NCBI RefSeq assembly: GCF_002101965.1
Contig: NZ_LQQA01000005.1
Span: 1 to 64,000 of the forward strand
DNA length: 64,000 bases
Source: Mycolicibacterium wolinskyi
GTDB taxonomy: Bacteria; Actinomycetota; Actinomycetes; Mycobacteriales; Mycobacteriaceae
Reading direction: 5' to 3'
The notes below the pieces were generated by a model. The model did no database searches. It was not told where the DNA came from and was given only the letters and a program-made list of their open reading frames with translations. Positions 17,800 to 40,049 of this stretch are shown here, in pieces. The translations under genes were made by a program, and so were the position numbers. Position 1 is the stretch's first letter; the number at the start of each line of letters is the position of its first letter.

Positions 17800-18909
17800 G
17801 TGGAGTGGCGAATCACCCAGGTGCAACCCTTCATCGACGATGACGAGTTGACTGGTGTCACAGACGTAATCAAACGTAACTGGCTCACCGAAGGTCCGTG
17901 TGCTGCCTCGTTTCTCGAGGCGATCAAACAGGAAACCGGAGCGCCGCACGCCGTGCTCGCACCCAACGGCACCCTCGCGCTGTTCCTCGCGTTGCTGGCG
18001 CTCGATCTGCCGCGAGACGGTGAGATCATCATTCCGGCGTTCACGTTCTACGCGTCGGCGTCGGCCGCGGTGTTCGCGGGGCTTCGCCCCGTCTTCGCCG
18101 ACGTCGACCCCGAGACCTTCAACCTCACCGCCGATGCACTCGCGGAGCAGATCACCGATCGGACCGTGGCGGTGATGCCGGTGCACGTCTACGGTCACAC
18201 CGCGGCTCTGGACGAAATACAGGATGTCGCTGAGCAGCACGGGATCAGGGTGATCGAGGACGCCGCGCAGGCGTACGGGGTGAACTTCAACGGGCGCGCC
18301 GCGGGCACCTGGGGTGACGTCGGAGCCATCTCGTTCTTCGCGGACAAGACCATCACCACCGGGGAAGGCGGAGTGGTGCTGACCGGCGACTCCGAACTCT
18401 ACGAACGCCTTCGCCTGCTCCGAAATCAAGGACGGCTCAACAGCGGTACCTTCAAGCACGACGCCCTCGGCATGAATTTCCGGGTGACCGATCTGCAGTG
18501 CGCCGTCGGGCTGTCCCAGCTTCGCAAGTTGCCCGACATCGCCGCCGCCAAACGACGCAACCATGCCCGGTATGTGGACAATCTGCGCGGTGTCGAGGGC
18601 ATCAGGCAGATGCGGATTCAACCCGGATCGGATCACCTCCCGTTCCGGTTCGCGTTTCTCAGCGAACATCGCGACGCCGTGGTGGCGGCACTCGAGGCGG
18701 CCGGAATCCAGACCCGTGGCTTCTTCTATCCACTGCACATGCAGCCGCCGCTCAAGAAGTACGCCGACGCGCCGCTTCCGAACGCCGAAAAGTTGTATTC
18801 GCAAGGAATTTGCCTACCGGTGCACACCGGCCTGAGCGCCGCCGACATCGACGAGATCTCGGGCATCATCCGCGGCGTTCACAACGACGCGCGCGCGTCG
18901 GGTATGTAA
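17800..18909 (+). CDS. DegT/DnrJ/EryC1 aminotransferase, GDP-perosamine synthase-like
   Basis: This 369-residue PLP-dependent sugar aminotransferase has the internal aldimine lysine in FFADKTITTGEGG near residue 187, the NGTLALFLAL cofactor loop and EDAAQAYG. The sequence around the lysine and the following LLRNQGRLNSGTFKHDALG...FRVTDLQCA segment are typical of perosamine synthases, which convert GDP-4-keto-6-deoxymannose to GDP-perosamine. That ketosugar would come from the dehydratase encoded at 22915. Start is GTG at 17800 with GGGGAG upstream. A UDP-4-keto sugar substrate is the main alternative. It marks the left end of the polysaccharide locus. Confidence 0.85.
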   Translation: MEWRITQVQPFIDDDELTGVTDVIKRNWLTEGPCAASFLEAIKQETGAPHAVLAPNGTLALFLALLALDLPRDGEIIIPAFTFYASASAAVFAGLRPVFADVDPETFNLTADALAEQITDRTVAVMPVHVYGHTAALDEIQDVAEQHGIRVIEDAAQAYGVNFNGRAAGTWGDVGAISFFADKTITTGEGGVVLTGDSELYERLRLLRNQGRLNSGTFKHDALGMNFRVTDLQCAVGLSQLRKLPDIAAAKRRNHARYVDNLRGVEGIRQMRIQPGSDHLPFRFAFLSEHRDAVVAALEAAGIQTRGFFYPLHMQPPLKKYADAPLPNAEKLYSQGICLPVHTGLSAADIDEISGIIRGVHNDARASGM

Positions 18910-18967
18910 GAATCTAGTTAGCTTCCGAGCAAACATCACCGCTCAACCGGACGGAGGCTCCTGCCAA

Positions 18968-19900
18968 GTGGAGACGACGCAATCGGCGCTGCCCACCCGA
19001 CAGGGCCGACACACAACCAGAGCGCTGGTGGCGCTTCTCATCCTGCTCATCGCCGCCACGTCCGCCGGATGCCGCGGCCCCGATCCGACAGAACGTACGG
19101 CGACCGTTCGCGGAGCCGACGGCGAACGTACGGCCATCGTCTACCACCCCACGACCGCCCGGCCCGGGGCACCGCTCGTCGTGGTGATGCACGGAGCCAA
19201 CGGCGCTGCCGCCGACGTGCGAAAGTCGCTGGGGTGGGACGCTCTTGCCGAGCGCGACGGATTTGTCGTCGCCTACCCGGAAGCCTTGGACAAGCGGTGG
19301 AACGCCGGATTCTGCTGCCGCCGTTCGGACACACCCGAGGTTGACGACGTGGGGTTTCTCCACGAGCTCAGAGAGAAGCTGATCGCCGAGGACGATGTCG
19401 ATCCACGGGGTGTCTACGCGGTGGGCGCGTCGAACGGCGGAATGCTGGCGTACGCGTGGGCATGTTCGAAGCCGGACGATCTCGCCGGCATTGCCGTGGT
19501 GTCGGGCGCGCTCACGGTGCCGTGCCCCGACCCGCCGCCGATTTCGGTTGTCGCGGTGCACGGATCGAATGACGAGGTGGTACCACCCGCCGGTGGCCTC
19601 AGTGTCGGCGGGCCGGGCAACAACCTCAGCTATCCGTCGCTCGATGAAGCCCTTGCCCCATTTCTGGCCGCTGCCTCCTGCCCACCTCGGCCCGAGGTGC
19701 AAGACACCGCGGGAGCCGAGGTCGCGATGTGGAAATGTCCGGACGGCCGGGTCATCATCCGTGACATCGTCAAAGGAAAAGGACACGGATGGCCCGGATC
19801 CGGAGGTAATTCCGGCAAGAGCACCGCTCCGACAGACCCGACCGGCTACATCTGGTTTGTCTTCAGCCGACTGCGTGGTCTGGAAACCCCGGCGGGCTAG
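18968..19900 (+). CDS. Secreted esterase lipoprotein, LpqC/PHB depolymerase-like
   Basis: The 310-residue protein begins with a signal peptide and lipobox (LLIAATSAGC, Cys near 36), so it is probably anchored to the outer face of the membrane. The mature part is a serine esterase: VVVMHGANG oxyanion region, VGASNGGMLAYAWA with the nucleophile serine, HGSNDEVVPP acid region and a GHGWPGSG histidine. The layout matches the poly-hydroxybutyrate depolymerase/feruloyl esterase family. Inside a polysaccharide locus it could remove acyl decorations from the polymer. Its TAG stop overlaps the stop of the opposing glycosyltransferase gene within one CTAG. Confidence 0.85.
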   Translation: METTQSALPTRQGRHTTRALVALLILLIAATSAGCRGPDPTERTATVRGADGERTAIVYHPTTARPGAPLVVVMHGANGAAADVRKSLGWDALAERDGFVVAYPEALDKRWNAGFCCRRSDTPEVDDVGFLHELREKLIAEDDVDPRGVYAVGASNGGMLAYAWACSKPDDLAGIAVVSGALTVPCPDPPPISVVAVHGSNDEVVPPAGGLSVGGPGNNLSYPSLDEALAPFLAAASCPPRPEVQDTAGAEVAMWKCPDGRVIIRDIVKGKGHGWPGSGGNSGKSTAPTDPTGYIWFVFSRLRGLETPAG

Positions 19901-21138
19901 CGGGTGCGGACGGTGACCGCATCGGTCAGTTCGAGAATCCAGTCCTCGTATGCATCGATGGCCGCGGACTCGGAGAGCACTCGGTGCGCGTACTGCCGCC
20001 CCTTCGCCCCCATCTTGATCGCACCGGCTTTGTCGTGTCCGGTGCGCAGTGCCGCCTCCACGAGCAACCGCGGATCACCGGACGCCACACACACTCCCGC
20101 GGCCGCCGAGTGCATCTCACGGGTCGACGCACTCCTTGGGTCGATGGCTGCGACGACCGGACGACCGGCCGCGAAGTAGGAGGTGAGCTTGCTTGGCACA
20201 CTCATCTCGGCCACGCCGGGCTTCTCGTTGAGGATCAGTACATCCGCTGCGGCCAAGGCGTTTTCGAATTCTCCGTCCGGCAGCGGATCCAGAAACTGCA
20301 CCGTGCTCACGTCGGCCGCAAGGTGTTCCAGTGCAGACCGTCGAGCACCGTCACCGAGCAGGACGAAACGTATCGGCAGGTGGGCGGTCTGGGCGATCCG
20401 GGCGGCCTCGACGACGTTTTCCAGACCCTGCTTCTCACCCATGTTTCCGGCGTGCAGGGCGATGACCTCGTCGTCTCGCCAGGACAGCCGATGTCGTGTC
20501 GCCGCTCGTTCCCCGGTGCCTTGCGTGATGTGGGACCAGTTGCGGATCACCGTCACTTTCGCGGGATCGACGCCGAGGGCGGTGACGGCGGCCGCGAAGG
20601 TGTCGTGGATGACCGACACACCGTCGACGCGGGACAACAAACGCCGTTCCAGATCGGCCACCGCCGTCGAGATACGCCCGCCGAACGCTCCGGTCTCGTC
20701 AATTGCCTTGCAATACATGTCCTGACAGACCACGCCCACCGCGGTTCGGCCGGACCTACGCCACGTCAGTGCCGTTGCGACGCTCAGCAGTGCCGGGCTG
20801 ACGGCGAGCACGAAATCCGGCCGGCCGCTGCGGATGGTCGACGCATGTGCGGCGTAGGCCGCTTCCATGGTGATCCGGCCGATACCGGTCGAACTGCGCG
20901 GAACCGGGTGGCGAACGCGGGTGACGTCGACCCCATCGATGTTCTCGTGTCGGCGTAGACCGCGATAGCCGGGGGTGATCCGCCACTGCGGGTAGTGCGG
21001 GTAGCCGGTCACCGCGCGTACATGGTGTCCACGTTCGACGAGTCCGCGGGCCAGCCCAGAGGTATAGGGTGCGATCCCGGTCGGCTCGGGTTGGTAGTAC
21101 AGGCCAAGTATCAGGATGTGCAATCCGGATGGTCTCAC
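19897..21138 (-). CDS. Glycosyltransferase family 4, WcaI/WbuB-like
   Basis: The 413-residue GT-B enzyme begins with ILGLYYQPEPTGIAPYTSGLA, the N-terminal pattern of WcaI/WbuB glycosyltransferases of colanic acid and O-antigen pathways. The C-terminal nucleotide-sugar domain contains HAGNMGEKQGLENVVEAA and PSKLTSYFAAGRPVVAA. It is cytosolic or membrane-associated and adds one sugar of the repeat unit, possibly fucose or perosamine given the GDP-sugar genes nearby. Start is GTG at 21138, five bases after the Wzz/kinase stop, so the two are cotranscribed. Confidence 0.9.
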   Translation of the reverse strand: MRPSGLHILILGLYYQPEPTGIAPYTSGLARGLVERGHHVRAVTGYPHYPQWRITPGYRGLRRHENIDGVDVTRVRHPVPRSSTGIGRITMEAAYAAHASTIRSGRPDFVLAVSPALLSVATALTWRRSGRTAVGVVCQDMYCKAIDETGAFGGRISTAVADLERRLLSRVDGVSVIHDTFAAAVTALGVDPAKVTVIRNWSHITQGTGERAATRHRLSWRDDEVIALHAGNMGEKQGLENVVEAARIAQTAHLPIRFVLLGDGARRSALEHLAADVSTVQFLDPLPDGEFENALAAADVLILNEKPGVAEMSVPSKLTSYFAAGRPVVAAIDPRSASTREMHSAAAGVCVASGDPRLLVEAALRTGHDKAGAIKMGAKGRQYAHRVLSESAAIDAYEDWILELTDAVTVRTR

Positions 21139-21143
21139 GGCGG

Positions 21144-22667
21144 TCAGTCTTCGTGCCGGTTGTTCGGCCGCGTGTGATGGTTGTTGGTGCTCGGGCCGCC
21201 CGCCACCCGAACCGGCTGCTTGCCGTTCACGATCGGCTCAGCCGCAAGAGCGTGAGAGCCGTTGTGGGAAACCGTTTTGGGTGTACTCACCGGTGAGCCG
21301 TTCTTCGCCGGCGCGGTGTAGCTACCGGGGGCGTACCAGTACCGGCTCTTGCCGAGTGCCCGCGCGGGCACCATGTTCAACACCACGCCCAAGACGCGGG
21401 CGCGTACCTGCCCGAGACTTCCGAGCGCGCGGTCGAACTGGTTCTGTGTGGTCTTGCCGGCATGGACGACGAGCAGGACCGCGTCGGCATGCGCGGCGAG
21501 CACCGCGGCGTCCGCGGCGGGCAGGATGGGCGGAGCGTCGACCACGATGATGTCGAACCGCTCCCTGAGGGCGGCGAGGATCGGCGGAAAGCGCTGCGAA
21601 CTCAGCAGTTCGGCCGGGTTTGGTGGAACCGCACCGCTGGTCAGTGCGGTCAGGCCGGGCTGGACCGGTTGCAGTATGTCGTCGACACTTGCCTGACCCA
21701 CCAATGCTTCGCTGAGTCCGAGACCATCCTTGAGATGGAAGTACTTGGCCACCGACGGGCGGCGCAGATCGCCGTCGAGAAGACAGACCCGCGTACCCAC
21801 CCGGGCCAGCGCGGCTGCCAGATTGCCTGCGACAGAACTCTTTCCCTCACCCGCCACTGCACTGGTGACGACGATGATCCTGGGTGTCTGGTCCACGGCG
21901 GCGAACTGGAGGTTGGTCCGCAACTGCCGGAACGCCTCGCCGCGCGCCCCGTGATCCCCGGCGGGGACGATGGTGGCGGCCCCGCGACTGCTGTCGTGGG
22001 CGACTGCCACCAGCACCGGTACGTCACACAGCGTGGCGATGTCGTCGGCGTCCTTGACCGAGGTGTTGAGCTTCTCCAACAACACCGCCAGGCCCACGCC
22101 GATGAACAGGCCCGCCAGCAGTCCGACGCCCAAGTTGAGCGGAATGCTCGGCCAGGACGGTGAAGTCGGGGCCACCGCGGGCGTGACGACGGTCGCCTTC
22201 ACCGGCGACGATCCGCGGGTTTCTGAGGATTCGAGTTCCCCGATGACTTTGGTGAGGCTGTTGCTGACCGAATTGGCCAGGGCGGCAGCTGTTTCCGGCG
22301 AATCAGCGGTGGCGGAGATGTCGATCAGCACGGTTTCGAGCGGTACTTCGGCGCTGACCCGCGATGCGAGTTCGGCTGCCGACACCGGCAGGCTGAGTTC
22401 TTCGATGACCGGATCGAGCACTGTCGGGCTGGTGACAAGCCGGGAGTAGGACTTGACGCGGTCGGTCGAGAAGTTGCTTCCCTGAAATAGTTCTTGATTG
22501 AGATTGCCAGAACTTATCTGTGTGGAAACGAATATCTGCGCATCGGCTTTATATGTCGGCTCCGTCAACAAGATCATGCCCGACGCGGCCGCCACCGACA
22601 GTACGACCGCACTGACGATGACACCGAGGTGCTTACGCAGTATCGCTAGATATGCCCGAAGATCCAC
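21144..22667 (-). CDS. Wzz-type chain-length protein fused to a BY-kinase (polysaccharide co-polymerase)
   Basis: The 507-residue protein has a Wzz domain bounded by two membrane helices (VIVSAVVLSVAAASGMILL near residue 20 and a proline-rich segment with LNLGVGLLAGLFIGVGLAVLL near 175) and a C-terminal cytosolic kinase with Walker A SAVAGEGKSSVAGN, Walker A' LLDGDLRRP and Walker B IIVVDAPP. A few tyrosines lie near the end (SRYWYAPGSY), fewer than in classic Gram-negative proteins. Such proteins set polymer length and control Wzy activity by autophosphorylation. Start is GTG at 22667 with GAGGG upstream. The divergent gene is the GDP-mannose dehydratase. Confidence 0.92.
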   Translation of the reverse strand: MDLRAYLAILRKHLGVIVSAVVLSVAAASGMILLTEPTYKADAQIFVSTQISSGNLNQELFQGSNFSTDRVKSYSRLVTSPTVLDPVIEELSLPVSAAELASRVSAEVPLETVLIDISATADSPETAAALANSVSNSLTKVIGELESSETRGSSPVKATVVTPAVAPTSPSWPSIPLNLGVGLLAGLFIGVGLAVLLEKLNTSVKDADDIATLCDVPVLVAVAHDSSRGAATIVPAGDHGARGEAFRQLRTNLQFAAVDQTPRIIVVTSAVAGEGKSSVAGNLAAALARVGTRVCLLDGDLRRPSVAKYFHLKDGLGLSEALVGQASVDDILQPVQPGLTALTSGAVPPNPAELLSSQRFPPILAALRERFDIIVVDAPPILPAADAAVLAAHADAVLLVVHAGKTTQNQFDRALGSLGQVRARVLGVVLNMVPARALGKSRYWYAPGSYTAPAKNGSPVSTPKTVSHNGSHALAAEPIVNGKQPVRVAGGPSTNNHHTRPNNRHED

Positions 22668-22914
22668 TTGGCCCTCACTTACTCGCGGAACTGGATCCCG
22701 CTGCGTGTTCCCCGCAGTGATTCTGCAGCAGCATAACCTGTGCTGGAGCATTTTGAGCGAACAATGTCGAAGCAAAACTGAACTACACGATGGTGCTTCA
22801 CGGTTAGCTGTTTCGCTATTCAAATACCCGTTGTGCGGTTCCTCGCGTTTGTGCTGCGGTGCGGTCCGAAGGCGTTTATTCTCCCGCTGAGAAGGTTGCG
22901 AAAAGGGGAGGCCC
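22668..22914. promoter_or_regulatory. Divergent promoter region of the polysaccharide locus
   Basis: These 247 bases separate the divergent Wzz/kinase and GDP-mannose dehydratase genes and are richer in A and T than their surroundings, especially 22730-22830. Promoters for both transcripts must lie here. No operator palindrome was recognised by eye. Confidence 0.45.
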
Positions 22915-23919
22915 GTGATTCAAGCAAAGAGGGCATTCATCACTGGGATCACCGGGCAGGATGGCTCGTACCTAGCCGAGTTCCTACTCGCCAAGGGGTA
23001 CGAAGTGCACGGCCTGATCCGCCGGGCGTCCACGTTCAACACCGGGCGGCTGGACCACATCTATACGGATCCGCACGTCGAGGGCACTCGATTTTTTCTG
23101 CACTACGGGGATCTGACCGACGGTTCGCGATTGGTGACGCTGCTGCAACGGATCCGGCCGGCAGAGGTCTACCACCTGGGAGCACAGACTCACGTGCGGG
23201 TGAGTTTCGACGAACCGGAGTACACCGGTGACACCTCGGCGCTCGGGACGACCCGCATCCTCGAGGCGATCCGGATGATCGGATTGGACTGCCGGTTCTA
23301 CCAAGCCTCGAGTTCGGAGATGTTCGGCGCGTCGCCGCCGCCGCAGAGCGAGCAGACGCCGTTCTGGCCGCGCAGTCCGTACGGGGTGTCCAAGGTGTAT
23401 GCCTACTGGATCACCCGCAACTATCGTGAGTCATACGGAATGTTTGCTGTCAACGGCATCTTGTTCAACCATGAGTCGCCGCGCCGTGGCGAGACCTTTG
23501 TGACGAGAAAGATCACGCGCGCGGTTGCTCGAATCAAGGCGGGCTTGGACACCGACCTCTACCTCGGCAACCTCGATGCGGTTCGCGACTGGGGATACGC
23601 GAAAGAGTATGTCGAGGCGATGTGGCTCATGTTGCAGGCAGATGAACCCGATGACTATGTCGTGGCCACGGGGAGCGCCTACAGCGTGCGTGACTTCGTC
23701 GAAATGGCGTTTTCGTATGCGGGCCTGGATTGGCATGAATACGTCAAGTTCGATGAGCGCTATGTCCGCCCCGCGGAAGTGGATTGTTTGATCGGGGAAC
23801 CATCCAAAGCGCGTGAGCTGCTGGGATGGAAAGCAAAAGTGTTGACGCCGGAGTTGGTGGAATTGATGGTGGACGCTGACTACGAGCTCGCGCTCGCCGA
23901 GGTCCGCAGCCGTGGCTGA
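22915..23919 (+). CDS. gmd: GDP-mannose 4,6-dehydratase
   Basis: This 334-residue SDR-type enzyme turns GDP-mannose into GDP-4-keto-6-deoxymannose. Diagnostic features are [20 protein letters not shown] at the N-terminus, the [10 protein letters not shown] segment, [12 protein letters not shown] (catalytic Tyr and Lys) and [19 protein letters not shown] at 22915 has a good ribosome site (GGGGAGG). It overlaps the GDP-fucose synthase gene by eight bases. Its product can feed both that enzyme and the aminotransferase at 17800. Confidence 0.95.
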
Positions 23920-24877
23920 CGTGCATCCGATCGACAGGGGGTCGCGAATCTACGTCGCCGGTCACCGCGGCCTGGCCGGGTCGGCCATCAAACGCGCCTT
24001 CGAGGCCGCCGGGTTCACCGACATCGTCGGGGTGGGGTCCGATGAACTCGACCTTCGGGACCGGGACGCCACGTTCGACTACATCGGCTCGGTGATGCCC
24101 GACGTCATCGTCCTGGCGGCCGCCAAAGTCGGTGGCATCGTCGCCAACAACGCCTATCCGGCGGAGTTCCTGTCCGACAACGTGCGCATCCAGGTCAACG
24201 TCATGGACGCCGCGAGAGACGTCAAGGTCAGACGCCTGGTCTTCCTGGGGTCCTCGTGCATCTATCCGAAGCACGCGCCGCAACCGATCCAGGAATCCGC
24301 CCTGCTCAGTGGCGCCCTCGAGCCGACAAACGACGCGTACGCCGTCGCGAAAATCGCGGGGATCACGCATCTTCGGGCGGTGCGCCGCGAGTACGGCCTC
24401 AACTGGATCGCGGCGATGCCGACAAACCTGTACGGTCCCGGAGACAACTTCGACCCCGAGAATTCGCATGTACTGCCGGGGATGATCTATCGCTTCCACA
24501 ACGCCGTACAGCACAACGAGCGCACCGTCGTCCTCTGGGGATCCGGGCGGCCGCGGCGTGAGTTTCTGCATGCCGATGATCTCGGCAGGGCGGTCGTCCA
24601 ACTCCTCGATCGCTACGACGGGCCCGACATCATCAACGTCGGAACCGGGCAGGACCTGACGATCCGCGAGCTCGCGCACCACGTGGCGCAGGTGGTCGGT
24701 TTCTCCGGAGAGATCGCGTGGGACACCCAGCGCCCCGACGGGACATACCAGAAGCTGCTGGATGTTTCGCGGATCAGCGCCTTGGGCTGGGCGCCCCGGG
24801 TCGCGTTGTCCGACGGCATCCGTGACGCCTACGAGTGGTTCCGGACGAACGTCGCGACAACCTGCGTTGGGCACTGA
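23912..24877 (+). CDS. fcl: GDP-L-fucose synthase (epimerase/reductase)
   Basis: The 321-residue enzyme converts GDP-4-keto-6-deoxymannose to GDP-L-fucose with NADPH. Seen are [38 protein letters not shown] with the catalytic Ser/Cys region, YAVAKIAG (YxxxK) and [12 protein letters not shown]. The start GTG at 23912 lies within the end of gmd; a second GTG at 23921 is possible. The close pairing with gmd is the standard arrangement for GDP-fucose synthesis. Confidence 0.94.
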
Positions 24878-24892: not shown

Positions 24893-27097
24893 TTGACTGA
24901 TACCGCCATCCCAGCAGCGGAAACCAAGGCCGTCGAGGCCGAGTCGAAGCCCGTCGGCAAGGCGGGCACGGTAAGCGCGCACATCGGCGGGCACCGCAAA
25001 GACATCGAGGGCATGCGCGCGCTGTCGATCCTGATGATCATGGTCTGGCATGCCGGCTTCAACATCCTGCCCGGCGGATTCGTCTCGCTCGACGTGTTTT
25101 TCGTCATCTCGGGCTTCTTGATCACCCAGCTGCTGGTCGAGGAGCTTCGGACCACTGGGCGGCTGCGGTTGCGCCGCTTCTACGGCCGACGTGCCAAGAG
25201 GCTCCTGCCTGCACCGACCGTCGTGATCATCGTGACCGCATTCATCGCACTGTTCGTGCTGCCGCGCAGTGAGTGGATGAGCACGGCATTCGACATCATC
25301 TTCACGGCGCTCTACAGCATGAACTGGTGGCTGGCCGCGCAGAGCACCGACTATTTCAACCAGAGCACGACGCAGAGTATCTACGAGCATTTCTGGTCGC
25401 TCTCGCTCGAAGAGCAGTTCTATCTGGTCTGGCCGTGTCTGCTGGCCTACGTGGCGATGCGGTCGTTCCAACAGGGCAGACGCAGTCTGGGTCCTCCGCT
25501 GCTGATCGCGTTCGCGCTCATCGGAATTCCGTCGTTCGCGTGGTCGGTGTACTACTCGGCGGTCCAGCCGGGGCCCGCGTACTTCGTCACCACGACGCGC
25601 GCCTGGGAGTTCGCGCTCGGCGGGGCGTTGGCCATGCTCACGTTCACCGATCGGAAGCTTCCGCGGTGGCTGGCCATCGTGACCGGATGGGCCGGGCTGA
25701 TCGCGATATTCGTGGCCGCCAGGGTCTTGACCCCGTCCGACGCCTATCCGAGTTATCTCGCGCTGATTCCGTGCCTGGCGACGTGCGCGATGATCACCGC
25801 CGGGTTCACCGCGGGACGGGCCGGTCCGGTCGCATTGCTCGGCACGGCGCCGATGCAGGTGGTCGGGCGCATGTCGTATTCGCTCTACCTGTGTCACTGG
25901 CCGGTGCTGACGCTGACCGCGGTTGCCCTCGGGCACGAACTCTCGCCGGTCGAAGGTCTTGTCGTGGTGGCGCTTTCGGCCATTCCCGCCTACCTGCTCC
26001 ACCGCTACATCGAGAACCCGATCCGATACTCGCGCACGCTGTTCCGGGATTCTGCGCACATGCTGAAGGCGGCCGCGGTCGCGACGTGCGTTTCGCTGCT
26101 GTCGGGAATGACCTTGTACATGGCCAACTGGCCGCCCCCGCCGCCGTTCGTGGCGCCGACGATCGCGACCCTGGCCATCGACGACGGCACCGCCGATGAC
26201 GGTTCCTTCGGCGGTGTGGCCAAACCCGACCCGCGCTCCAACCCGAACTCGATTCTGGGCGCGGGGATACTCGGTGACCCGCCGCTCGGAGATCCCAACG
26301 GGGCGCCGAAGGACACGTCCAACCAGATCGTGCCGGACCCCACCGTCGCAGGCGAGGACTACATCCAGTGCACGCAGGTCATCGAGAGCAGCGAGGTGCG
26401 GACGTGCGCCTACGGGAAACAAGACTCCGATACCGTCGTCGCCGTCGTCGGCGATTCGCATGCCAATCAATGGATTCCCGGCCTCTCGAAAGTGGCGGAA
26501 GCGAACGGGTGGGCCCTCGTCGAATACACCAAGGCGGCGTGTTCGTTCTCCGATGTGCTGGTGGCCACGAAAGACCAGAAGGCATACCCGTCGTGCAACG
26601 AATGGAGCGCCGCGGTACTCGACCGGCTGCTGACCACAGAACGCCCGACCATGGTCATCACGACACAGCTGTCGAAAGGTGTCTTCGTCAACGGCCAACT
26701 CAGATACGACCCGGTCGGCAAGGATGTGCTCTCGGACGGGCTGCGGCGCTACTACCAGGCGCTCGCGGACGCGGGCATACCGGTCCTGGTGATCCAGGAC
26801 AGCCCGGAACCACAGGAGGACATCGCGGACTGCGTTGAGCAGCACCCGACGAAATTGACGGAATGCTCGGCCGATCGGGCGGCGATGCTGCCCGCCGACC
26901 ACAACGCGGAACAGACCCGAGCCGCCAACGGCCTGCCCAACGTCCGCCTCGTCGATTTCAACGATGCGATCTGCCCGACCGAACGCTGCGCCCCGGTGAT
27001 CGGCAACGTCCTGATCTATCGCGACAACAGCCATTTGACGGGGACCTACGTCCGGACCTTGGTGCCGGTCATGCAAAAACGAATCACGTTGCCGTGA
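24893..27097 (+). CDS. Membrane O-acyltransferase with C-terminal SGNH domain (OafA type)
   Basis: The 734-residue protein has an acyltransferase-3 membrane domain of about ten helices (GMRALSILMIMVWHAGF and FVSLDVFFVISGFLITQLL near the start, EQFYLVWP in the middle) and an extracytoplasmic SGNH esterase-like domain (VVGDSHANQW near 520, DNSHLTGTY near 710, supplying Ser and the Asp-His pair). Such two-part proteins move acetyl groups across the membrane and place them on glycans. Start is TTG at 24893 with GGGGG upstream. It is a paralogue of the protein encoded at 34053-36209. Confidence 0.9.
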   Translation: MTDTAIPAAETKAVEAESKPVGKAGTVSAHIGGHRKDIEGMRALSILMIMVWHAGFNILPGGFVSLDVFFVISGFLITQLLVEELRTTGRLRLRRFYGRRAKRLLPAPTVVIIVTAFIALFVLPRSEWMSTAFDIIFTALYSMNWWLAAQSTDYFNQSTTQSIYEHFWSLSLEEQFYLVWPCLLAYVAMRSFQQGRRSLGPPLLIAFALIGIPSFAWSVYYSAVQPGPAYFVTTTRAWEFALGGALAMLTFTDRKLPRWLAIVTGWAGLIAIFVAARVLTPSDAYPSYLALIPCLATCAMITAGFTAGRAGPVALLGTAPMQVVGRMSYSLYLCHWPVLTLTAVALGHELSPVEGLVVVALSAIPAYLLHRYIENPIRYSRTLFRDSAHMLKAAAVATCVSLLSGMTLYMANWPPPPPFVAPTIATLAIDDGTADDGSFGGVAKPDPRSNPNSILGAGILGDPPLGDPNGAPKDTSNQIVPDPTVAGEDYIQCTQVIESSEVRTCAYGKQDSDTVVAVVGDSHANQWIPGLSKVAEANGWALVEYTKAACSFSDVLVATKDQKAYPSCNEWSAAVLDRLLTTERPTMVITTQLSKGVFVNGQLRYDPVGKDVLSDGLRRYYQALADAGIPVLVIQDSPEPQEDIADCVEQHPTKLTECSADRAAMLPADHNAEQTRAANGLPNVRLVDFNDAICPTERCAPVIGNVLIYRDNSHLTGTYVRTLVPVMQKRITLP

Positions 27098-27128
27098 AGT
27101 CGCCGTAGTGAACCGGACGAGGGCGCAG

Positions 27129-31597: not shown

Positions 31598-32791
31598 TCA
31601 GACGTTGACGACAGAAGCGGGCTTGACTTTGAACCGGTACGCCGCGCCCATCAGCGAGCATTGGAGGACATATCCGAATGCGACGGACCAGGCCGCGCCG
31701 ACGGCGCCGAACAGTGGTCCGAAGGTCGCGATGAGGGCGAGGGTGACGATCGAACTCGTCCAGACGACCGCCGCCACGAGCGACGCCCGGTCGACGGCGT
31801 TGAGACCACTCGCGATCGCCGAGGCCACGGCCGCGAAAACAAGGCTTACGACGATGATCCGGACGACCGCGGTGCTCGGTGCGTATGCCTCTCCCAGGAG
31901 CAGCGCTATCCACCAGGGTGCGGTGATCGCCAACGGCACGAAGAACGCGCCCGACAGCGCGCCGACGACCAGGATGGTCACCAGCGGCAGCCGTTCCTTG
32001 GTCGTGGCCAGCCTCGGTAGCAGAAGCTGGGTGTATGTCCACGGCACCAACATCAACGCCGGCGTGAGTCGGCTCGCGGGGGCGAAGATGCCGGCGACCG
32101 GCGTGCCGGCCGAAATGGTCAGTACCGCAACGTCTGCCTGCCGGATACCTTGACCCGCTAGCGCAGCCCAGAACGGCGCCAGCATCGCCCAGGTAGCGCG
32201 GTCGGGCAGTGCTCGACCCGGCAACGCGAGCCCCGAACCCGACAGATGCCGCGCGAACATCAACCGCGCCGCTATGGCAGCGACCAACATCGACAACGAG
32301 AACGCCCACACCAGAGCGGTATTCGCCGGGACGACCAGGACCACGGCCAACGTGGGCATCCGTCGCACGAAGTATCCGAATCCGACCATCTGCTGGCGGC
32401 CTCGTGCGATGAGGTAGGCGCTGATCACCTCGAGCTGCCGTTCGAGCGGAGCCCAGAAACACAGCGGAATGCACGCCGCAAGGACGGTTGATTGCGTAGC
32501 CCCGGCCAGCCCCGCCAGCACCGGCAGCGAGATCGCCAGCACACCGTAGGTGAGAAGGCGGTTGGCCCGGAACACCTCGGCCACGGTCTGCACAGATTCG
32601 TGATGACGCCCGACGGCGTAGGTGGCGCCACCGTCGGCGATCATGATCAACGCCATGAGTGTGCCGAGTACCGCGGCGAATTGGGCGAACGACGATGGCC
32701 CGAGCCCGCGCGCCATGATCAACATGGTGATGGCCTGTGCGGCGGTGGCAAGCATCCGGGCACCACCGACTTGGCCGAGTGCCTTCAGCAT
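31598..32791 (-). CDS. Wzx-like polysaccharide repeat-unit flippase
   Basis: The 397-residue, almost wholly hydrophobic protein has about twelve predicted membrane segments and the N-terminal layout of the MOP/PST exporter family (MLATAAQAITMLIMARGLGP, then GPSSFAQFAAVLGTL). Such proteins flip undecaprenyl-linked repeat units to the periplasmic side. It overlaps the polymerase gene by seven bases and sits between polymerase and glycosyltransferase genes, the usual context. True Wzx sequences are poorly conserved, so the call rests on topology and neighbours. Confidence 0.85.
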   Translation of the reverse strand: MLKALGQVGGARMLATAAQAITMLIMARGLGPSSFAQFAAVLGTLMALIMIADGGATYAVGRHHESVQTVAEVFRANRLLTYGVLAISLPVLAGLAGATQSTVLAACIPLCFWAPLERQLEVISAYLIARGRQQMVGFGYFVRRMPTLAVVLVVPANTALVWAFSLSMLVAAIAARLMFARHLSGSGLALPGRALPDRATWAMLAPFWAALAGQGIRQADVAVLTISAGTPVAGIFAPASRLTPALMLVPWTYTQLLLPRLATTKERLPLVTILVVGALSGAFFVPLAITAPWWIALLLGEAYAPSTAVVRIIVVSLVFAAVASAIASGLNAVDRASLVAAVVWTSSIVTLALIATFGPLFGAVGAAWSVAFGYVLQCSLMGAAYRFKVKPASVVNV

Positions 32792-34056
32792 CGCGCCACC
32801 CCGAATGTTTCCGTCGACGCCGGGCTTGGTTCGGAAGCCGAACGGGTGTAACGCAAGTCGACCACGAGATAGATCGCGAAGGCGACCGGGATCCAGTAGT
32901 AGCGGTTGTAGAACCCAGGAGCGGTCTGGGCGAAGACCAGCGCCGCGATGACGGAGGTGGCGATCGCGTTGTGCAGCGGATCGCGCCGGGATCGCCCGCT
33001 CAGACAGAACCGCAATGCGATGGCTGTCGCGATGACCACGCCGAGGAACACCAGCACGCCGCCCGCGGTCCAGGTGCCGAGAAAGTTGTTGTGTACGGTG
33101 AACCGCTTCATCAGGACGTTGTCGGCGATCAGCATGCCGCGGCCGACGAACGGCGAATCTCCGATCGCGTCGACAGCCAGCCGCATCAGCTCGAGTCTCG
33201 TTCCTGCGGTGTCGTATTCGGACTGTGAGGCGCTGAATCCGGTGGTCCGGGTCAAACGCTCGATCGGATTGAGGGCACCGATGCTGTCCAGCTGGGGCAG
33301 CAGAATCGCCAACAGCAGTGCACCGGCAGCGGTGATGCCCAATGCCCTGCCGACGCGGACCGTACCCCTGATGAGCAGGTAGGCGACCGCGGCGCCCAGC
33401 CCCAACAGACCGCTGACGCTGCCGCTGAGGACCAGGCCCACCAGGCTGGCCGACAATATCGCCAGCGCGCCGATACGGACGCCGCGGGGGATCGTCGCAC
33501 CCACTGCCGCAAGCATCGCGGCGGCCGCCATGCAGGAGATGCCCGCGAGGTCGTTCTGATGCGTCGTCATGCCGGTGAACCGGCCGTCGACGGTGATGGC
33601 GCCGCCGGGGATGACGTCACCCCAGATCAGCTGTGCGACAGCGCCGACAGCGCACAATGCGGCGCCGGACATGAACCACGCCAACGCGGTGACCACGTGT
33701 CTGCGCTCGGTCAGCAGGTTCACCAGGATCCATGGGACGAGCACCACGAGATAGATGAGCCGGACGGCGATGCTGACGCTGCCGACCGGATCAATGCTCA
33801 CGGCCGACGAGATCAGCGTTCCCACCACGAGCAGCGGAGCGGCGACGTACAACGCCACCGGAAGCGACCGAGCCGGCCGGTTCATCGACAGCAAGGCGCA
33901 GAATCCTGCGCCCGCCATCAACATGTCGCCGTACGGCAATGCCATCGGCCCGCGCAGGACGAGTAGAGAGGTCAGCGCGAGACCGGGGTAAAGCAGCGCT
34001 CGACCGACCGCGAGCATGCCGTCGTCGGTCGGACTTGTCTGCGCGCGTCGGCTCAT
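32785..34056 (-). CDS. Wzy-like polymerase / O-antigen ligase family protein
   Basis: This 423-residue membrane protein has about eleven segments and a large loop containing TTHQNDLAGI and, later, TVHNNFLGTWTAGG, which match the conserved histidine-containing region of the Wzy_C/WaaL family. It should join repeat units into polymer on the outer side of the membrane. ATG at 34056 overlaps the upstream acyltransferase stop as ATGA. WaaL-type ligases share the same motif, but the flippase and Wzz neighbours favour a polymerase. Confidence 0.87.
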   Translation of the reverse strand: MSRRAQTSPTDDGMLAVGRALLYPGLALTSLLVLRGPMALPYGDMLMAGAGFCALLSMNRPARSLPVALYVAAPLLVVGTLISSAVSIDPVGSVSIAVRLIYLVVLVPWILVNLLTERRHVVTALAWFMSGAALCAVGAVAQLIWGDVIPGGAITVDGRFTGMTTHQNDLAGISCMAAAAMLAAVGATIPRGVRIGALAILSASLVGLVLSGSVSGLLGLGAAVAYLLIRGTVRVGRALGITAAGALLLAILLPQLDSIGALNPIERLTRTTGFSASQSEYDTAGTRLELMRLAVDAIGDSPFVGRGMLIADNVLMKRFTVHNNFLGTWTAGGVLVFLGVVIATAIALRFCLSGRSRRDPLHNAIATSVIAALVFAQTAPGFYNRYYWIPVAFAIYLVVDLRYTRSASEPSPASTETFGVARC

Positions 34057-36209
34057 CGCTGAGCCGGTCCCAGTTCTGCCTCCAGGCGCGGGCCGAGCGT
34101 TCTGACGTATGTCCCGGTGAGGTGGCTGGCGTCGCGGTACACCAGAACATTGCCGATCACCGCCGCGCACTTCTCCGTTGGGCAGATCGCGCCGTTGAGA
34201 TCGACGATCCGGACATCCGGGAGACCCGCCTTGGCTTCGAACTGCTCGGCACCCAGGTCGCCGGGAACCATGACCGACCGGTCACCCGCGCACTCGGTGA
34301 GTTTCGTCGGATTGGTTTGCACGCACTCGGGAATGTTCACCGTCGGACGTGGGGTGTCCTGAATGACGAGGACCGGGATGCCTGCCTTGTTGAGGGCTTC
34401 GTAGTTGCGGCGAAGTCCCTCGGCCAGCGCGGTGACGTTCGCCGCATCGAATTCCGCCTTGCCGCCGAGCATCACACGCTTCTTGATGTGGCTCGTGACC
34501 ACCAGCGTCGGCTTCTCGGCGATCAGCCGTTCTCGAAGCGCCGTGCCCCATTGATGGCACGACGGATACGGATGTCCCTCGTTCGTGGTGATCAACGCAT
34601 CGGCGAACGAGCACGCGGCTTTCGTGTACTCGACGAGCTTCCAGCCCCGGCGGGTGGCGATCTCCGACAACGCGGGCACCCATTGATTGGCGTGCGAGTC
34701 GCCGACAAGCACCACGACCGTCTGCGAGTCCGTCTTGCCGTAGGTGCAGGACATGATCTCGCTGTTCTCCTGCGTCTGAGTGCAATTCGTGAAGTCCTGT
34801 TCGGCGACGTCGGGTGCGGGCACGATCTTCGGGGAGGTGTCCTTGGGGCTTCCGGCCTCGTTGCCGAGCGGTTTCGGGCCGAGTGCCGTCGCGCCGAGGA
34901 TCGCGTTCGGGTCGGTTTTCGCCGCCGACGCGCCGTCGACGGCGGCGTCTGCTGTTCCGGCGGCCAGCTGTGAGATGGCCGGGGGCACGAACGGCGGGGC
35001 CGGAGGCCATTTGGCAAGGCACAGAGCGATTCCCGCGGTGAGCGAGATGACCATCGTGATGGCGCCGAACTGCAGCATCGGCACCGATTGCTGCAGCCTC
35101 GATTTCGAGAACCGGATGGGATTCTCGATGTGGTGGTGGAGCAGGTATGCCGGGACGATCGAGGAGAACACGACGATCAGACCCTCGACCGGGGTGAGGG
35201 GGCCCATCACCGCGATCGCGACGATGAGTACCGGCCAGTGGCACAGGTAGATCGAGTACGACAGGCGGCCGATCCATTCCATCGCCGGTTGGCCCAACAC
35301 CCAACCCGCCGAGCCCTTCGGCCGGGCCTCGGCATGCAGACCTGCCCAGATGACAGCGGCAGCACCGACGGTGGGCACCAGCGCGTGCCAACCCGGATAC
35401 GCGATCTCGGGGGTGAAGAGCACGCCGGCGGCAATGATCGCGGCGAGGCCAAGCCAGCCGGTGACGACTGCGAGTCCACGCGGAAGGAAACGCCGGTTCA
35501 CGGCGAGCATCGCGACGACGGCGCCGAGCGCCAGCTCCCACATCCTGGTGGTGGTCACGAAGTACGCGCGCTCGGGACTGGTCTGGGTGTAGTAAATCGA
35601 CCACAGCAGCGACGGCAGCCCGACCAGCGCGAGGGCGAACGTGATCGAGCCGTTGAGGTTTCGGCGTTTGCCGAGCCTGGCGAACAGAACCGCGGCGGCC
35701 ATCAAACACGGCCAGAGGATGTAGAACTGCTCTTCGACCGCCAGCGACCAGTAGTGCTGCACGATAGAGGGCGCGCTGTCCGCCCGCAGGTAGTTGACAC
35801 TCTCCGCGGCCAAGCGCCAGTTGATCGCGTAGACCGCGCTCGCCATGATGTCCTGCCCGGTGGAGACCCATCGATTCTGGGGTAGAAACGCCCACGTGAG
35901 GACTGCCGAGGCCACCAGGACCACGGCGGCAGCAGGCAGCAATCTGCGTGCCCGGCGCGCGTAGAACCGGCGCATCCGAAGCCGACCGCTCGTGCGGGCC
36001 TCGTTGACGAGCATGCGCGTGATCAGAAATCCCGAGATGACGAAGAAGACGTCCACGCCGACGAATCCACCGTCGGTCCACGGCAATCCGGCGTGCGTGA
36101 GCATCACGAGCAGTACCGCGACCGCGCGCAGCCCTTCGACGTCGGGACGGTAGCCCGCCGGGGCCTGCGGTGAAGAGCGGTGTCTCTCGACGGTTGCTGC
36201 TTGTGTCAT
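34053..36209 (-). CDS. Membrane O-acyltransferase with C-terminal SGNH domain, second paralogue
   Basis: The 718-residue protein has the same architecture as that encoded at 24893: acyltransferase-3 helices (GLRAVAVLLVMLTHAGLPW, FVGVDVFFVISGFLITRML) followed by an SGNH domain (VLVGDSHANQWVPALSE, YRDASHLTGTYVRTL). The two share long nearly identical stretches such as EYTKAACSF and IPVLVIQD, but their interdomain linkers differ. ATG at 36209 is preceded by GGGAC. It probably acetylates a different position or sugar from its paralogue. It lies 26 bases after the initiating transferase gene. Confidence 0.9.
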   Translation of the reverse strand: MTQAATVERHRSSPQAPAGYRPDVEGLRAVAVLLVMLTHAGLPWTDGGFVGVDVFFVISGFLITRMLVNEARTSGRLRMRRFYARRARRLLPAAAVVLVASAVLTWAFLPQNRWVSTGQDIMASAVYAINWRLAAESVNYLRADSAPSIVQHYWSLAVEEQFYILWPCLMAAAVLFARLGKRRNLNGSITFALALVGLPSLLWSIYYTQTSPERAYFVTTTRMWELALGAVVAMLAVNRRFLPRGLAVVTGWLGLAAIIAAGVLFTPEIAYPGWHALVPTVGAAAVIWAGLHAEARPKGSAGWVLGQPAMEWIGRLSYSIYLCHWPVLIVAIAVMGPLTPVEGLIVVFSSIVPAYLLHHHIENPIRFSKSRLQQSVPMLQFGAITMVISLTAGIALCLAKWPPAPPFVPPAISQLAAGTADAAVDGASAAKTDPNAILGATALGPKPLGNEAGSPKDTSPKIVPAPDVAEQDFTNCTQTQENSEIMSCTYGKTDSQTVVVLVGDSHANQWVPALSEIATRRGWKLVEYTKAACSFADALITTNEGHPYPSCHQWGTALRERLIAEKPTLVVTSHIKKRVMLGGKAEFDAANVTALAEGLRRNYEALNKAGIPVLVIQDTPRPTVNIPECVQTNPTKLTECAGDRSVMVPGDLGAEQFEAKAGLPDVRIVDLNGAICPTEKCAAVIGNVLVYRDASHLTGTYVRTLGPRLEAELGPAQR

Positions 36210-36235
36210 GTGTGTCCCGGGTCCCGTCTGGTTGG

Positions 36236-37681
36236 TTAGTAGGCGCCTTTGCGCTGAAGCACGACGCCGGGCGTCTGCAACATGATCCGTAGGTCCCACA
36301 TCAGCGACCACGACCTGACGTAAACGGAGTCGAGGTGCTGCAAATCGGCGTACGTGAGGTCGCTACGTCCGCAGACCTGCCAGAGCCCTGTGATGCCCGG
36401 TGATACGCCGAGGCGGGTGAGCGCGACACCGTCGAGTCCGTCGGCCATCTCCGTCGGCAGGGGCCGTGGGCCGACCAGTGACATCTCGCCGCGGATCACG
36501 TTGAGGAACTGGGGGAGTTCGTCGAGGCTCGTCTTACGGATGAGTGCGCCCACGCGCGTGACCCGCGGATCGTGCTCGGCCTTGAACAACGGGCCGTCGA
36601 CCTTGTTGTACTGGGCGACGGCGCTGCGGAGCTCCCAGGCGTCGGCGGTCATCGACCGGAACTTGTAGATCTGGAACGGCTTTCCGCCCCGGCCGATCCG
36701 CTCTTGACGGAAGAACACCGGACCTGGGCTGTCGAGCTTGATCGCCGCGGCGATGATGAGCCACAGCGGAGCCACCGCGATGACCGCACACGAACCGAGG
36801 ACGATGTCCATGGCACGTTTGACGATCCGGTCGGTCTGAGCGAGCGACGGCGTCGGCACATGCATGAGCGTGAGCCCGTGGAGCTCCTCGACGTCGCTGC
36901 GCCAGTTCAGGAGTTCGAAGAACCGCGGGACGATCGACACCGGAACATGGCTGCTCAGGTGACGCACTGCGTCCTGGACATCGGCGTCGGTGCCGTTGGG
37001 GTAGGCGATGATGACGCGGTCGACGCGGTGCCTGGCGCATACCTCGGGAAGTTCGGCGATACGCCCGAGCACCGAACTGTCCGGTGCGGGCGTGTCGTCG
37101 ACCGTGCCGACGATGAGGGTGTCCCTGCACCGGTGCAACCGCGATGTCAGCCGGTCCGAGATCGGGCCCTTACCCACGATCAGTATCCGGGTCACGGTGG
37201 GCCCGTCCAGGATTCGCACCACCACACGCCGCCCGAACGGTACGAGCAACACGGCAGGCAGGGTCATCGCGACCGCGGCGGTGAGGGTCATCTTCCGGTC
37301 AGGCGATATCAGCGCGTCGATTCCGAGTGCCAGGAGGGCTGCGGTCGGCAGGCAGCGCGCGACCATCGTGGGACGCCACCACGAACTCGGGCGGAGCACC
37401 GATGCCGGCCTGCGGTACTGACCGTGCAGGTGAAGCGCCACGATCATGGCGATCACGGCGAGCAGGACTTCACGGGCGCCGAGGTCGCCGGCTCGGATCG
37501 GGCTGATGAAGTTGATGAGCACGGCGCCGAGCACTGCCGAAACGCTCAGTGCCAGAACGTCGGCGAGCCGCAGCAGGCTGCGCTGACGCAGGTCGAACTC
37601 CGGGGCTGGCTCAGCCTGCAAGCGGGCGATCTCGGTCGACGGTGTGCGATGCGGAATGGAGGTCGTTGTGCTGTTGGTCAT
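36236..37681 (-). CDS. Undecaprenyl-phosphate sugar phosphotransferase (WcaJ/WbaP type)
   Basis: The 481-residue initiating enzyme has N-terminal membrane helices, a central nucleotide-binding-like domain (TRILIVGKGPISDRL) and the C-terminal catalytic domain beginning with a re-entrant helix (RAMDIVLGSCAVIAVAPLWL). Signature motifs follow: DSPGPVFFRQERIGRGGKPF, KFRSMTAD, KTSLDELPQFLNVIRGEMSL and VGPRP, and near the end SPGITGLWQVCGRSDLTY. It transfers a sugar phosphate, usually glucose-1-P or galactose-1-P, to undecaprenyl or decaprenyl phosphate and so starts each repeat unit. ATG at 37681 has GAGGGG upstream. Confidence 0.94.
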   Translation of the reverse strand: MTNSTTTSIPHRTPSTEIARLQAEPAPEFDLRQRSLLRLADVLALSVSAVLGAVLINFISPIRAGDLGAREVLLAVIAMIVALHLHGQYRRPASVLRPSSWWRPTMVARCLPTAALLALGIDALISPDRKMTLTAAVAMTLPAVLLVPFGRRVVVRILDGPTVTRILIVGKGPISDRLTSRLHRCRDTLIVGTVDDTPAPDSSVLGRIAELPEVCARHRVDRVIIAYPNGTDADVQDAVRHLSSHVPVSIVPRFFELLNWRSDVEELHGLTLMHVPTPSLAQTDRIVKRAMDIVLGSCAVIAVAPLWLIIAAAIKLDSPGPVFFRQERIGRGGKPFQIYKFRSMTADAWELRSAVAQYNKVDGPLFKAEHDPRVTRVGALIRKTSLDELPQFLNVIRGEMSLVGPRPLPTEMADGLDGVALTRLGVSPGITGLWQVCGRSDLTYADLQHLDSVYVRSWSLMWDLRIMLQTPGVVLQRKGAY

Positions 37682-37715
37682 GGTGACCCCTCGAATGGCT
37701 GGACTGCGATCGGCT

Positions 37716-40049
37716 TCAGCAGCCGAAACCGACGATGTGTAACCCCGAACCGGCAAAGGCGCTTGCGGACAGGAAGTTTCGGCCGTCAACCACCAGATCG
37801 CCACGCATCACCCGGCGAAGTGCCGGCGCGTCGATCTGGCGGAACTCGGGCCATTCGGTGACGAGTACGACGGCGTCCACCCGGTCCGCGGCGCCGTAGA
37901 CGTCTGTTGCGACGCGCACTGCGGCGTACTCGCGCGGAAGGGACTTGATCGCGGGGTCGTATGCCGATACCACGGCGCCAGCAGACACGAGACGCTTTGC
38001 GATATCGAGGGCGGGGGCGTCTCGGAGGTCGTCGGTGTTGGGCTTGAACGTCAAGCCGAGCAGCGCGATTCTGCGGCCCTTGAGCACGTGGAGTTCGCGT
38101 TGCAGCTTGCGCACCGCCGTGGCGCGCTGAGCACTGTTGATCTGCACGGTCGCCTGCAACATCGTCGGCGTGTACCCGTACTCCTGGCCGGTCGAGATCA
38201 GGGCGGCGAGATCCTTGCCGAAGCACGAACCGCCCCATCCGACACCGGGATTCAAGAACGCCGCGCCCACCCGGCTGTCCGCTCCGATGGCGGGCAGCAC
38301 TTCGCGCACGTCGGCGCCGACCGCCTCGCACAGTTGCGCGATCTCGTTCGCGAAACTGATCTTGGTCGCGAGAAACGCGTTGGCGGCGTACTTGATCATC
38401 TCGGCCGATGCGAGTTCGGTGTTGATCAGCACCGGCCGACGCGTGCGGCGTCCGCCCTCGAACGACTGCTCGAGGACCGGCTGGTAGAGCTCGGCGACTC
38501 GGGCGACGTCGGACGGTGCCCCGCCCAGCACGATGCGGTCCGGGTACAGGAAGTCCTCGATGGCCGAACCTTCCCGCAGGAACTCGGGGTTGGATACGAC
38601 GTGGAAGGTGAGTTGGCGCGAACCGGCCAGCGCGTCTTCGAGAATCGTGCGAGCCCAGTTCCCCGATCCGACCGGCACCGTGGACTTGTTGACGACGATG
38701 ACCCCGGGCCGCAGATGCGCGGCCAGGGACTGGATGGCACCTTCCAGTTGGGTCAGGTCAGGGGACCCGTCGGGCCCGGGCGGGGTCCCCACACAGAGGA
38801 AGACGAAGTCGGCGTCGGTGAGCGCCTCGGCCGGATGTTCGGTATATCGGAGCCGCCCGGTCGCCAAGGTCTCGGTCAGCAACTCCGGTAGCCCGGGTTC
38901 GTGGAACGGCGTCTGTCCGTCGTTGAGCTGCCCGGCCCGCGTCGGGTCGCTGTCGAGGCCGCACACGACATGGCCGAGCGAGGCCAGGCAGGCCGAGGTG
39001 ACCGCGCCGACATAGCCGGTGCCGATGACCGCGACCTTGTGTCTGGTCCGCTGCACCTCGACGCGGGCCCGCGTTCCCCCGGAAAGCGCCTCGGGCCAGC
39101 GGGATTCGGCACCAGACGACTGAGTGCGGAACCATTCGATGGTGTCGCGCAGCCCGTCGCCGACGTCGATACCCGGCGTCCAGCCCAGGCGTGTGCGCGC
39201 GAGCTCGATATCGGGTCGGCGCTGTGAAGGATCGTCCTGCGGCCGCTCGGTGAACACGATGGGCGACGTCGAGCCTGCCAGTTCGCGGATCAGTTCGGCG
39301 AGCTGCAGCGTCGTCATCTCGTGCGGATTGCCGATGTTGACCGGTCCGGTCATGTCCGAAAAGAGCAGTCGCACAGCACCTTCCACCAGGTCGTCGACAT
39401 GACACACCGATCGGGTCTGGCTGCCGTCGCCATGTACGGTGATCGGCACTCCGGCGATCGCCTGGGTGATGAACGTCGGTATCGCCCGTCCGTCGTTCGG
39501 GCGCATTCGCCGGCCGTACGTGTTGAAGATCCGCATGATCGTGGTGTCGACGCCGTGTTTCGTCCGGTAGGACGTCGTCAGCGCCTCGGCGAACCGCTTC
39601 GCCTCGTCGTAGCACGCGCGCGGCCCGACCGGGTTGACGTTTCCCCAGTAGTCTTCGCGTTGCGGATGGACAAGCGGGTCGCCGTAGGCCTCGGATGTCG
39701 ACGCCAGCAGATAGCGCGCACCTTTCTCCTTGGCGAGGCCGAGTGTGTGCAGCGTGCCGAGAGACCCCGTCTTCATCGTTTGAATCGGCAGTTCCGCGTA
39801 GTCGATCGGTGACGCGGGCGAGGCGAAGTGCAATACATAGTCGACCGGTCCCGGAATCGAGACGTAGTCGTTCACGTCGACCTTGATAAGCCGGAAACCG
39901 TCATGGTCGAGTAGGTGAAGCACGTTGTCGGCGGAGCCTGTCACGAAGTTGTCGAGGCATATGACGTCGATGTTCTCTGCGAGCAGACGCTCCGCGAGAT
40001 GCGAGCCGACGAACCCCGCACCCCCTGTCAGTACGGCTCTTTTACGCAA
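37716..40049 (-). CDS. Fused UDP-glucuronate decarboxylase (UXS) and UDP-glucose 6-dehydrogenase (UGD)
   Basis: One uninterrupted 777-residue frame holds two enzymes. Residues 1-310 are a UXS-type [46 protein letters not shown] (Tyr 147, Lys 151) and [10 protein letters not shown]. After a 25-residue linker, residues 337-777 are UDP-glucose dehydrogenase: [30 protein letters not shown] and [12 protein letters not shown] with catalytic Cys 609. Together they should convert UDP-glucose to UDP-glucuronate and then UDP-xylose. The start is TTG 40049, preceded by AGGAGG five bases away; an in-frame ATG at 40085 lacks such a site. It is the first gene of the eight-gene minus-strand operon. Confidence 0.93.

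Follow-up and report, generated by a model that had tools for sequence, protein, structure and literature searches.

A stretch of 64,000 nucleotides at the start of contig NZ_LQQA01000005.1 (C5 in our numbering) in the 7.5-Mb genome of Mycolicibacterium wolinskyi, hereafter the window, carries 17 adjacent open reading frames (ORFs) between positions 17800 and 40085. We predict that these genes form an intact-looking Wzx/Wzy-type locus for the production of an acylated repeat-unit polysaccharide that contains fucose and xylose and is destined for the cell surface, and the probability of this reading, which is based on sequence comparison and predicted folds, was estimated to be about 75%. All 17 frames were uninterrupted in the ORF listing of the window, and 15 of the 17 proteins passed the curated Pfam cutoff of a fitting family, the exceptions being the hexapeptide transferase and the flippase candidate. 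A complete-looking pathway of this type had been proposed in the original prediction, and the open frames, the fitting families and the predicted folds agree with it. The genes are organized in groups on both strands and not as a single operon, in the following order from the left.

17800–18909, +: DegT-family nucleotide-sugar aminotransferase, perosamine-synthetase-like (PF01041, 349 bits; 3bn1 perosamine synthetase, 247 bits)
18968–19900, +: secreted esterase (Esterase_PHB family), likely a lipoprotein (PF10503, E 7.6e-8; N-terminal hydrophobic stretch, then Cys)
19897–21138, −: GT4 glycosyltransferase, WcaI-like (PF13579; NF007640, 264.6 bits, cutoff 276)
21144–22823, −: Wzz chain-length protein fused to a bacterial tyrosine autokinase (BY-kinase), Wzz/kinase (PF02706; TIGR01007, 171 bits, cutoff 108)
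22915–23919, +: GDP-mannose 4,6-dehydratase, gmd (TIGR01472, an equivalog model, 517 bits, above the cutoff of 415)
23912–24877, +: GDP-L-fucose synthase, fcl (NF047922, 434 bits, below the cutoff of 500)
24893–27097, +: AT3-SGNH acyltransferase a, member of an inverted pair (PF01757 and PF19040; exchange point near residue 425, about 26165)
27108–28037, +: Gfo/Idh/MocA oxidoreductase, MocA (PF01408, 59.7 bits)
28041–29168, +: FAD-dependent oxidoreductase, DAO (PF01266, 60.5 bits)
29103–29960, −: secreted polysaccharide lyase, likely a lipoprotein (PF14099, 105.5 bits)
29957–30589, −: hexapeptide (LbH) sugar acyltransferase (PF00132, 22.7 bits, below the cutoff of 27; start probably inside the ORF)
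30454–31587, −: GT4-type glycosyltransferase (PF13692, PF00534)
31598–32791, −: candidate Wzx-type MOP flippase, wzx (predicted fold; Pfam silent)
32785–34056, −: candidate Wzy-type polymerase, wzy (PF04932, 42.4 bits, cutoff 31.7; invariant His321)
34053–36209, −: AT3-SGNH acyltransferase b, member of the inverted pair (PF01757 and PF19040; exchange point near 34972)
36236–37681, −: initiating polyprenyl-phosphate hexose-1-phosphate transferase (PGT), WcaJ/WbaP type (TIGR03025, 371 bits, cutoff 295.6; WbaP structures, E 3e-48)
37716–40085, −: fusion of UDP-glucuronate decarboxylase (UXS) and UDP-glucose 6-dehydrogenase (UGD) (Pfam domains; relatives found half by half)

The assembly machinery was assigned from family models and structure predictions. 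The PGT scored above the TIGR03025 cutoff and is related to the WbaP structures, and on these grounds it is classed as an initiating transferase; by its PF02706 match and a TIGR01007 score above the cutoff, the Wzz/kinase is likewise classed as a Wzz-type polysaccharide co-polymerase with a BY-kinase. The AlphaFold2 model of the flippase candidate (pLDDT 86.8, built from 17 sequences) found the lipid III flippase WzxE as its best PDB match (E 5e-8), and the top TM-score by query length among the best 50 matches listed was 0.79, for the lipid II flippase MurJ. MATE transporters, which are members of the same MOP superfamily, also matched the model. By its predicted fold, the protein is classed as a Wzx-type member of that superfamily. 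The model of the polymerase candidate had a pLDDT of 91.6 and was built from 41 sequences, and H321, R158 and R384 are invariant across this alignment. Because the former has a WzxE/MOP fold and the latter combines the PF04932 match with a WaaL-like fold, the two candidates appear to belong to the right classes and not to unrelated families, in line with their earlier naming as Wzx-like and Wzy-like.

Several signatures were read directly in the sequences. The PGT has LDELPQ and the polymerase candidate VHNN, the kinase shows Walker A, A' and B and a cluster of Tyr residues at its C-terminus, the UXS-UGD fusion contains TSE, YDEAK, RRPDI and GGSCFGKD, and each of the two SGNH domains has GDSH and D-x-S-H; we take all of them to be catalytic signatures. 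The starts of AT3-SGNH b and wzy were corrected to 36209 and 34056, respectively, both ATG, with an overlap of 4 bp between the two genes. The fusion starts either at 40049 (TTG) or at 40085 (ATG), and the true start of the Wzz/kinase is uncertain, its search query having begun at 22682, where there is no start codon. The 25 NCBIfam matches listed for the hexapeptide transferase were all below their own cutoffs, and the PDB sequence search with the polysaccharide lyase gave one match (enolase, E 0.32).

The sugars were predicted from the enzymes of nucleotide-sugar synthesis. The UXS-UGD fusion is 789 amino acids long, and its N-terminal half is closest to human UXS1 (363 bits, versus 124 bits for the best UDP-glucose 4-epimerase). 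This half retains E120, Y147, K151 and R277 (numbered from 40049), which presumably correspond to the catalytic positions of UXS1, and the C-terminal half was identified as a UDP-glucose dehydrogenase. The fusion is predicted to convert UDP-glucose to UDP-xylose within one chain. Since its dehydrogenase is joined to a decarboxylase of the UXS1 type, the prediction of xylose is more specific than the earlier proposal of xylose or glucuronate, of which the xylose part stands. Perosamine synthetases are the best solved relatives of the DegT protein (247 bits, versus 198 bits for the next kind). As gmd also supplies the shared precursor, perosamine is a reasonable constituent of the polymer, as had been suggested.

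In the pathway that we propose, gmd and fcl would produce GDP-fucose, the DegT protein may form GDP-perosamine out of the gmd intermediate common with GDP-fucose, and the fusion would supply UDP-xylose from UDP-glucose through UDP-glucuronate. The PGT would load the first sugar on the polyprenyl phosphate carrier in the membrane, and the two glycosyltransferases would lengthen the unit. Wzx would then flip the unit and Wzy would link the units, with the chain length fixed by the Wzz/tyrosine kinase. The two AT3-SGNH proteins and the hexapeptide enzyme would decorate the polymer, and the lipoprotein lyase and the esterase would trim it outside the cell. We infer a lipid-linked repeat unit, its polymerisation and decoration, and a surface location of the product.

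The conservation of the locus was analysed by searching related genomes. A close PGT (66–73% identity) was found in 14 of the 247 other sampled genomes of the genus, and in all 14 regions it is immediately adjacent to the UXS-UGD fusion, which forms a single open frame. Mapping of the whole block, as had been proposed, showed this particular set to be rare, with homologues of all 17 genes only in one of the 14, M. manitobense (G028:C148), at 50–86% identity. Because they all lie there within about 23 kb of one contig, the association of the 17 genes is more than chance. The other 13 regions have different surroundings, several of them with homologues of Wzy_C, Polysacc_synt, Wzz/kinase or phosphatase. 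Wzy_C was seen near the fusion-PGT pair in at least five of the 14 (M. manitobense, Mycobacterium sp. ACS1612 [G066], G024, G241 and G208), and a Wzz/kinase homologue in eight. A tyrosine-phosphatase homologue, identified by Pfam in one case, occurred in 10 of 15 regions when a region on contig C29 of the M. wolinskyi genome, described below, was counted. Matches to wzx were found in 7 of 248 genomes of the genus and matches to wzy in 4 of 396, the own genome counted in both; the identities were 60% and 66% in M. manitobense, respectively, and 25–28% in the others. Beside the Wzz/kinase in 5 of the 15 regions, including G151, G067, G241 and G208, lies a protein of about 610 amino acids (L064:17094–18920; DUF4012 by Pfam in one).

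At E 1e-120, in a draw of 201 genomes of the family, the fusion was matched over its full length in the own genome and G053 only; in five genomes belonging to two other genera, the match was limited to the UXS half. In a wider set of at least 80 matched loci, 21 were checked, and an open frame spanning the whole match was found at four of them (L070–L073; two named mycobacteria, one Mycobacterium metagenome-assembled genome and one such genome named Actinomycetes). A fusion in cyanobacteria was ruled out for the checked loci, as the other 17, cyanobacteria included, had no single open frame; the halves therefore look like separate neighbouring genes there (L074, L075–L084 and others). This pattern suggests that adjacent UXS and UGD genes gave rise to the fusion, which looks largely mycobacterial in what was examined.

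Several observations weigh against a complete Wzx/Wzy pathway. The flippase candidate had no Pfam match even at E 0.1 and no NCBIfam match, and the best PDB match of the polymerase model was the ligase WaaL (E 6e-7, TM 0.53). No Wza-type exporter (Poly_export) was matched genome-wide, in a search that was positive in 4 of 14 control genomes including E. coli, and no low-molecular-weight tyrosine phosphatase of the Wzb type is encoded in the cluster, the nearest on the contig being about 134 kb away. Only two glycosyltransferases are available for all the predicted sugars, fcl and the WcaI-like glycosyltransferase score under their NCBIfam cutoffs, and MocA and DAO, whose matches were of a general kind, have no assigned step in the pathway. 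Among the 14 fusion-PGT regions, no Wzy_C was seen nearby in nine, some of which end at contig ends.

The PF04932 match and the WaaL-like fold are compatible with a polymerase and with a ligase alike. If the Wzy-like protein were a ligase moving one finished oligosaccharide to a protein or lipid, as its similarity to WaaL might indicate, a glycoprotein or glycolipid and no polymer would result; an O-glycosylation-ligase model, TIGR03097, also matched, at 29.8 bits and thus far under its cutoff of 188. We give this only a slim chance, against which stand the Wzz/BY-kinase length protein and the polysaccharide-lyase-family protein, whose presence in the same conserved cluster fits a polymer. Such a polymer could also be a wall-linked, teichuronic-acid-like glycopolymer that LCP ligases, with genes outside the locus, would join to peptidoglycan; the negative search for a Wza-type exporter in the genome and the similarity of the UGD half to TuaD (405 bits, below the cutoff of 700) can be cited for this reading. 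This too is unlikely, with a small but real chance: none of the 17 proteins has an LCP domain, the rest of the genome not having been searched for one, and the secretion of the lyase and the esterase points to an outer polymer. The patchy occurrence of wzy, with one close match (66%) and two at 28% beside the own copy, would fit a silent island gained horizontally and without a product under ordinary conditions, but the 17 intact frames and the full set of homologues in M. manitobense make this very improbable. Base composition, tried as a sign of a horizontal island, was a weak one, as the G+C content of the locus (64.9%) resembles that of the left flank (64.4%; right flank, 66.6%). A surface polysaccharide made by a Wzx/Wzy-type pathway is the reading that we prefer.

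Compared with the window, M. manitobense has the segment flanked by the two AT3-SGNH genes in the opposite orientation, and these genes are chimeric between the two species, with their halves swapped. Up to alignment column 430, 63 informative sites paired the genes by position and 3 in the swapped manner, while after this column the numbers were 1 and 36, respectively (Fisher p = 4e-23, with the cut chosen to minimise p). The exchange point maps to the linker that joins the membrane acyltransferase to the SGNH domain, or close to it. At least one inversion event has occurred between the species, and because the halves are swapped, it probably resulted from recombination inside the two inverted AT3-SGNH genes. 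Through the inversion, the block of wzy, wzx, glycosyltransferase, hexapeptide transferase and lyase genes, which follows the PGT in the window, comes to follow gmd-fcl. Among the 120 matches listed of 1022, 19 further AT3-SGNH homologues (P0066–P0084; P0065 is the protein of the window itself) comprised 8 that were clearly window-like, 4 inverted-like and 7 too close to call. The inverted-like four include the M. manitobense protein itself and those of M. arseniciresistens and Mycobacterium sp. NPDC050551. P0081 (AFM11_09175 of M. wolinskyi) is a 98–99% match to AT3-SGNH b of the window. M. manitobense (L043/L044) has a tandem duplication of the polysaccharide lyase gene, the copies being 65% and 61% identical to that of the window.

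The rarity of such loci in mycobacteria, implied by the original prediction, did not hold for the genus. With the own genome counted, matches to the PGT (E 1e-30), to Wzx-type Polysacc_synt (E 1e-5) and to Wzy_C (E 1e-5) were found in 191, 179 and 178 of 248 genomes, respectively, and they are often clustered. Co-location was counted from the best 150 matches per gene, which gives lower bounds. Polysacc_synt and Wzy_C lie no more than 30 kb apart in at least 85 of the 98 genomes with both, PGT and Polysacc_synt in at least 50 of 78, and PGT and Wzy_C in at least 36 of 76; all three are within 30 kb in at least 24 of 55, and any two in at least 121 of the 248. In 31 genomes with large contigs, PGT and Wzy_C were within 30 kb in 20, versus a mean of 0.2 (maximum 3) in 1000 random shifts on an assumed 5.5-Mb chromosome. 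Five example regions, picked for close marker pairs, were compared. Four of them (L164–L167) represent a different type of locus, with an adjacent PGT-flippase pair (68–80%) and a Wzz-like gene (61–73%); three of these share a membrane protein carrying a Wzy_C match (54–61%) further off, and the intervening genes vary. The fifth region differs from the other four. These findings suggest that a family of capsule-like polymers in mycobacteria has probably been overlooked.

A second, different cluster was found in the M. wolinskyi genome itself (G000:C29, about 635000–658151; L041, L042), with Wzy_C, a PF01943 flippase, a Wzz/kinase and a PGT, together with a pyruvyltransferase, a methyltransferase and GDSL lipases. 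It adjoins the genes for biotin ligase (birA), bPH_2, GtrA, PurK, PurE and an acyl-CoA dehydrogenase. Near the fusion-PGT pair of G082 and G229 (M. iranicum), several of these neighbours have homologues with 60–91% identity. Because the flanks of the second cluster recur there, a single chromosomal site appears to be occupied by different polymer clusters depending on the species, as in capsule loci. In our estimate, there is an even chance that mycobacteria carry, across the genus, a serotype-like family of Wzx/Wzy capsule loci whose cassettes can be exchanged; within it, the present locus would diversify by the AT3-SGNH inversion, which swaps acyltransferase halves and takes the wzy-wzx-glycosyltransferase block out of the PGT operon and into that for GDP-fucose.

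Around the locus, the window encodes an ACP-thioesterase end (22–1041), a 2156-aa type I polyketide synthase with the order KS-AT-DH-ER-KR-ACP (2072–8539, −), the adjoining Hsp90 (HtpG) gene (8793–10865, +) and an AMP-binding enzyme (11002–12747). A Sulfotransfer_3 family sulfotransferase gene (16549–17694, +) is located immediately ahead of the locus; since no homologue of it was found in 15 related regions, it probably lies outside the locus, though the polymer might be sulfated. The stretch of about 1 kb upstream of the fusion gene (40086–41089) contains no convincing gene and may carry its promoter. Rfam gave no match within the window.

The kind of pathway is well known; passages of PMC10937973 describe the Wzx/Wzy-dependent pathway for the group 1 capsule. 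Among the open-licence matches listed, no description was seen of its clustered occurrence throughout the mycobacterial genus, and no mycobacterial Wzx/Wzy locus appears in their titles and abstract openings. According to passages of PMC8875947, evidence for exopolysaccharide (EPS) in mycobacterial biofilms was lacking until recent reports, chiefly of cellulose, and others may exist unidentified; a passage of PMC6364259 regards finding the genetic pathways of polysaccharide synthesis as an opportunity. In these passages both reviews leave the genes for matrix polysaccharides open, and candidate genes are now at hand in many species. Should the product prove to be a capsule-like polymer, locus exchange may make the surfaces of mycobacteria differ from species to species, like K antigens.

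For comparison with group 1 capsule and colanic acid loci, we used gene names that we assume to be correct for those systems. The window locus has in common with them a WcaJ/WbaP-type PGT, a MOP-fold flippase, a Wzy_C protein, a Wzz/BY-kinase, gmd-fcl, a WcaI-like glycosyltransferase and acyltransferases. It differs from them in that the genome has no Wza/OPX match and the locus no adjacent phosphatase, and in its UXS-UGD fusion and the two AT3-SGNH genes as an inverted pair. The EPS clusters of Actinoplanes missouriensis (PMC13390465) are also actinomycete clusters, with Wzx and Wzy counted 24 times each, in a different genus. The second cluster on C29 shares with the window locus Wzy_C, a flippase, a Wzz/kinase, a PGT and homologues of the WcaI-like glycosyltransferase (50%) and fcl (50%), whereas its PGT is only 36–38% identical and it is distinguished by the pyruvyl- and methyltransferases, the GDSL lipases and the birA-bPH_2-GtrA-purK-purE flank. 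The M. manitobense locus has homologues of all 17 genes and differs in its inverted interior, the swapped AT3/SGNH halves and the duplicated lyase.

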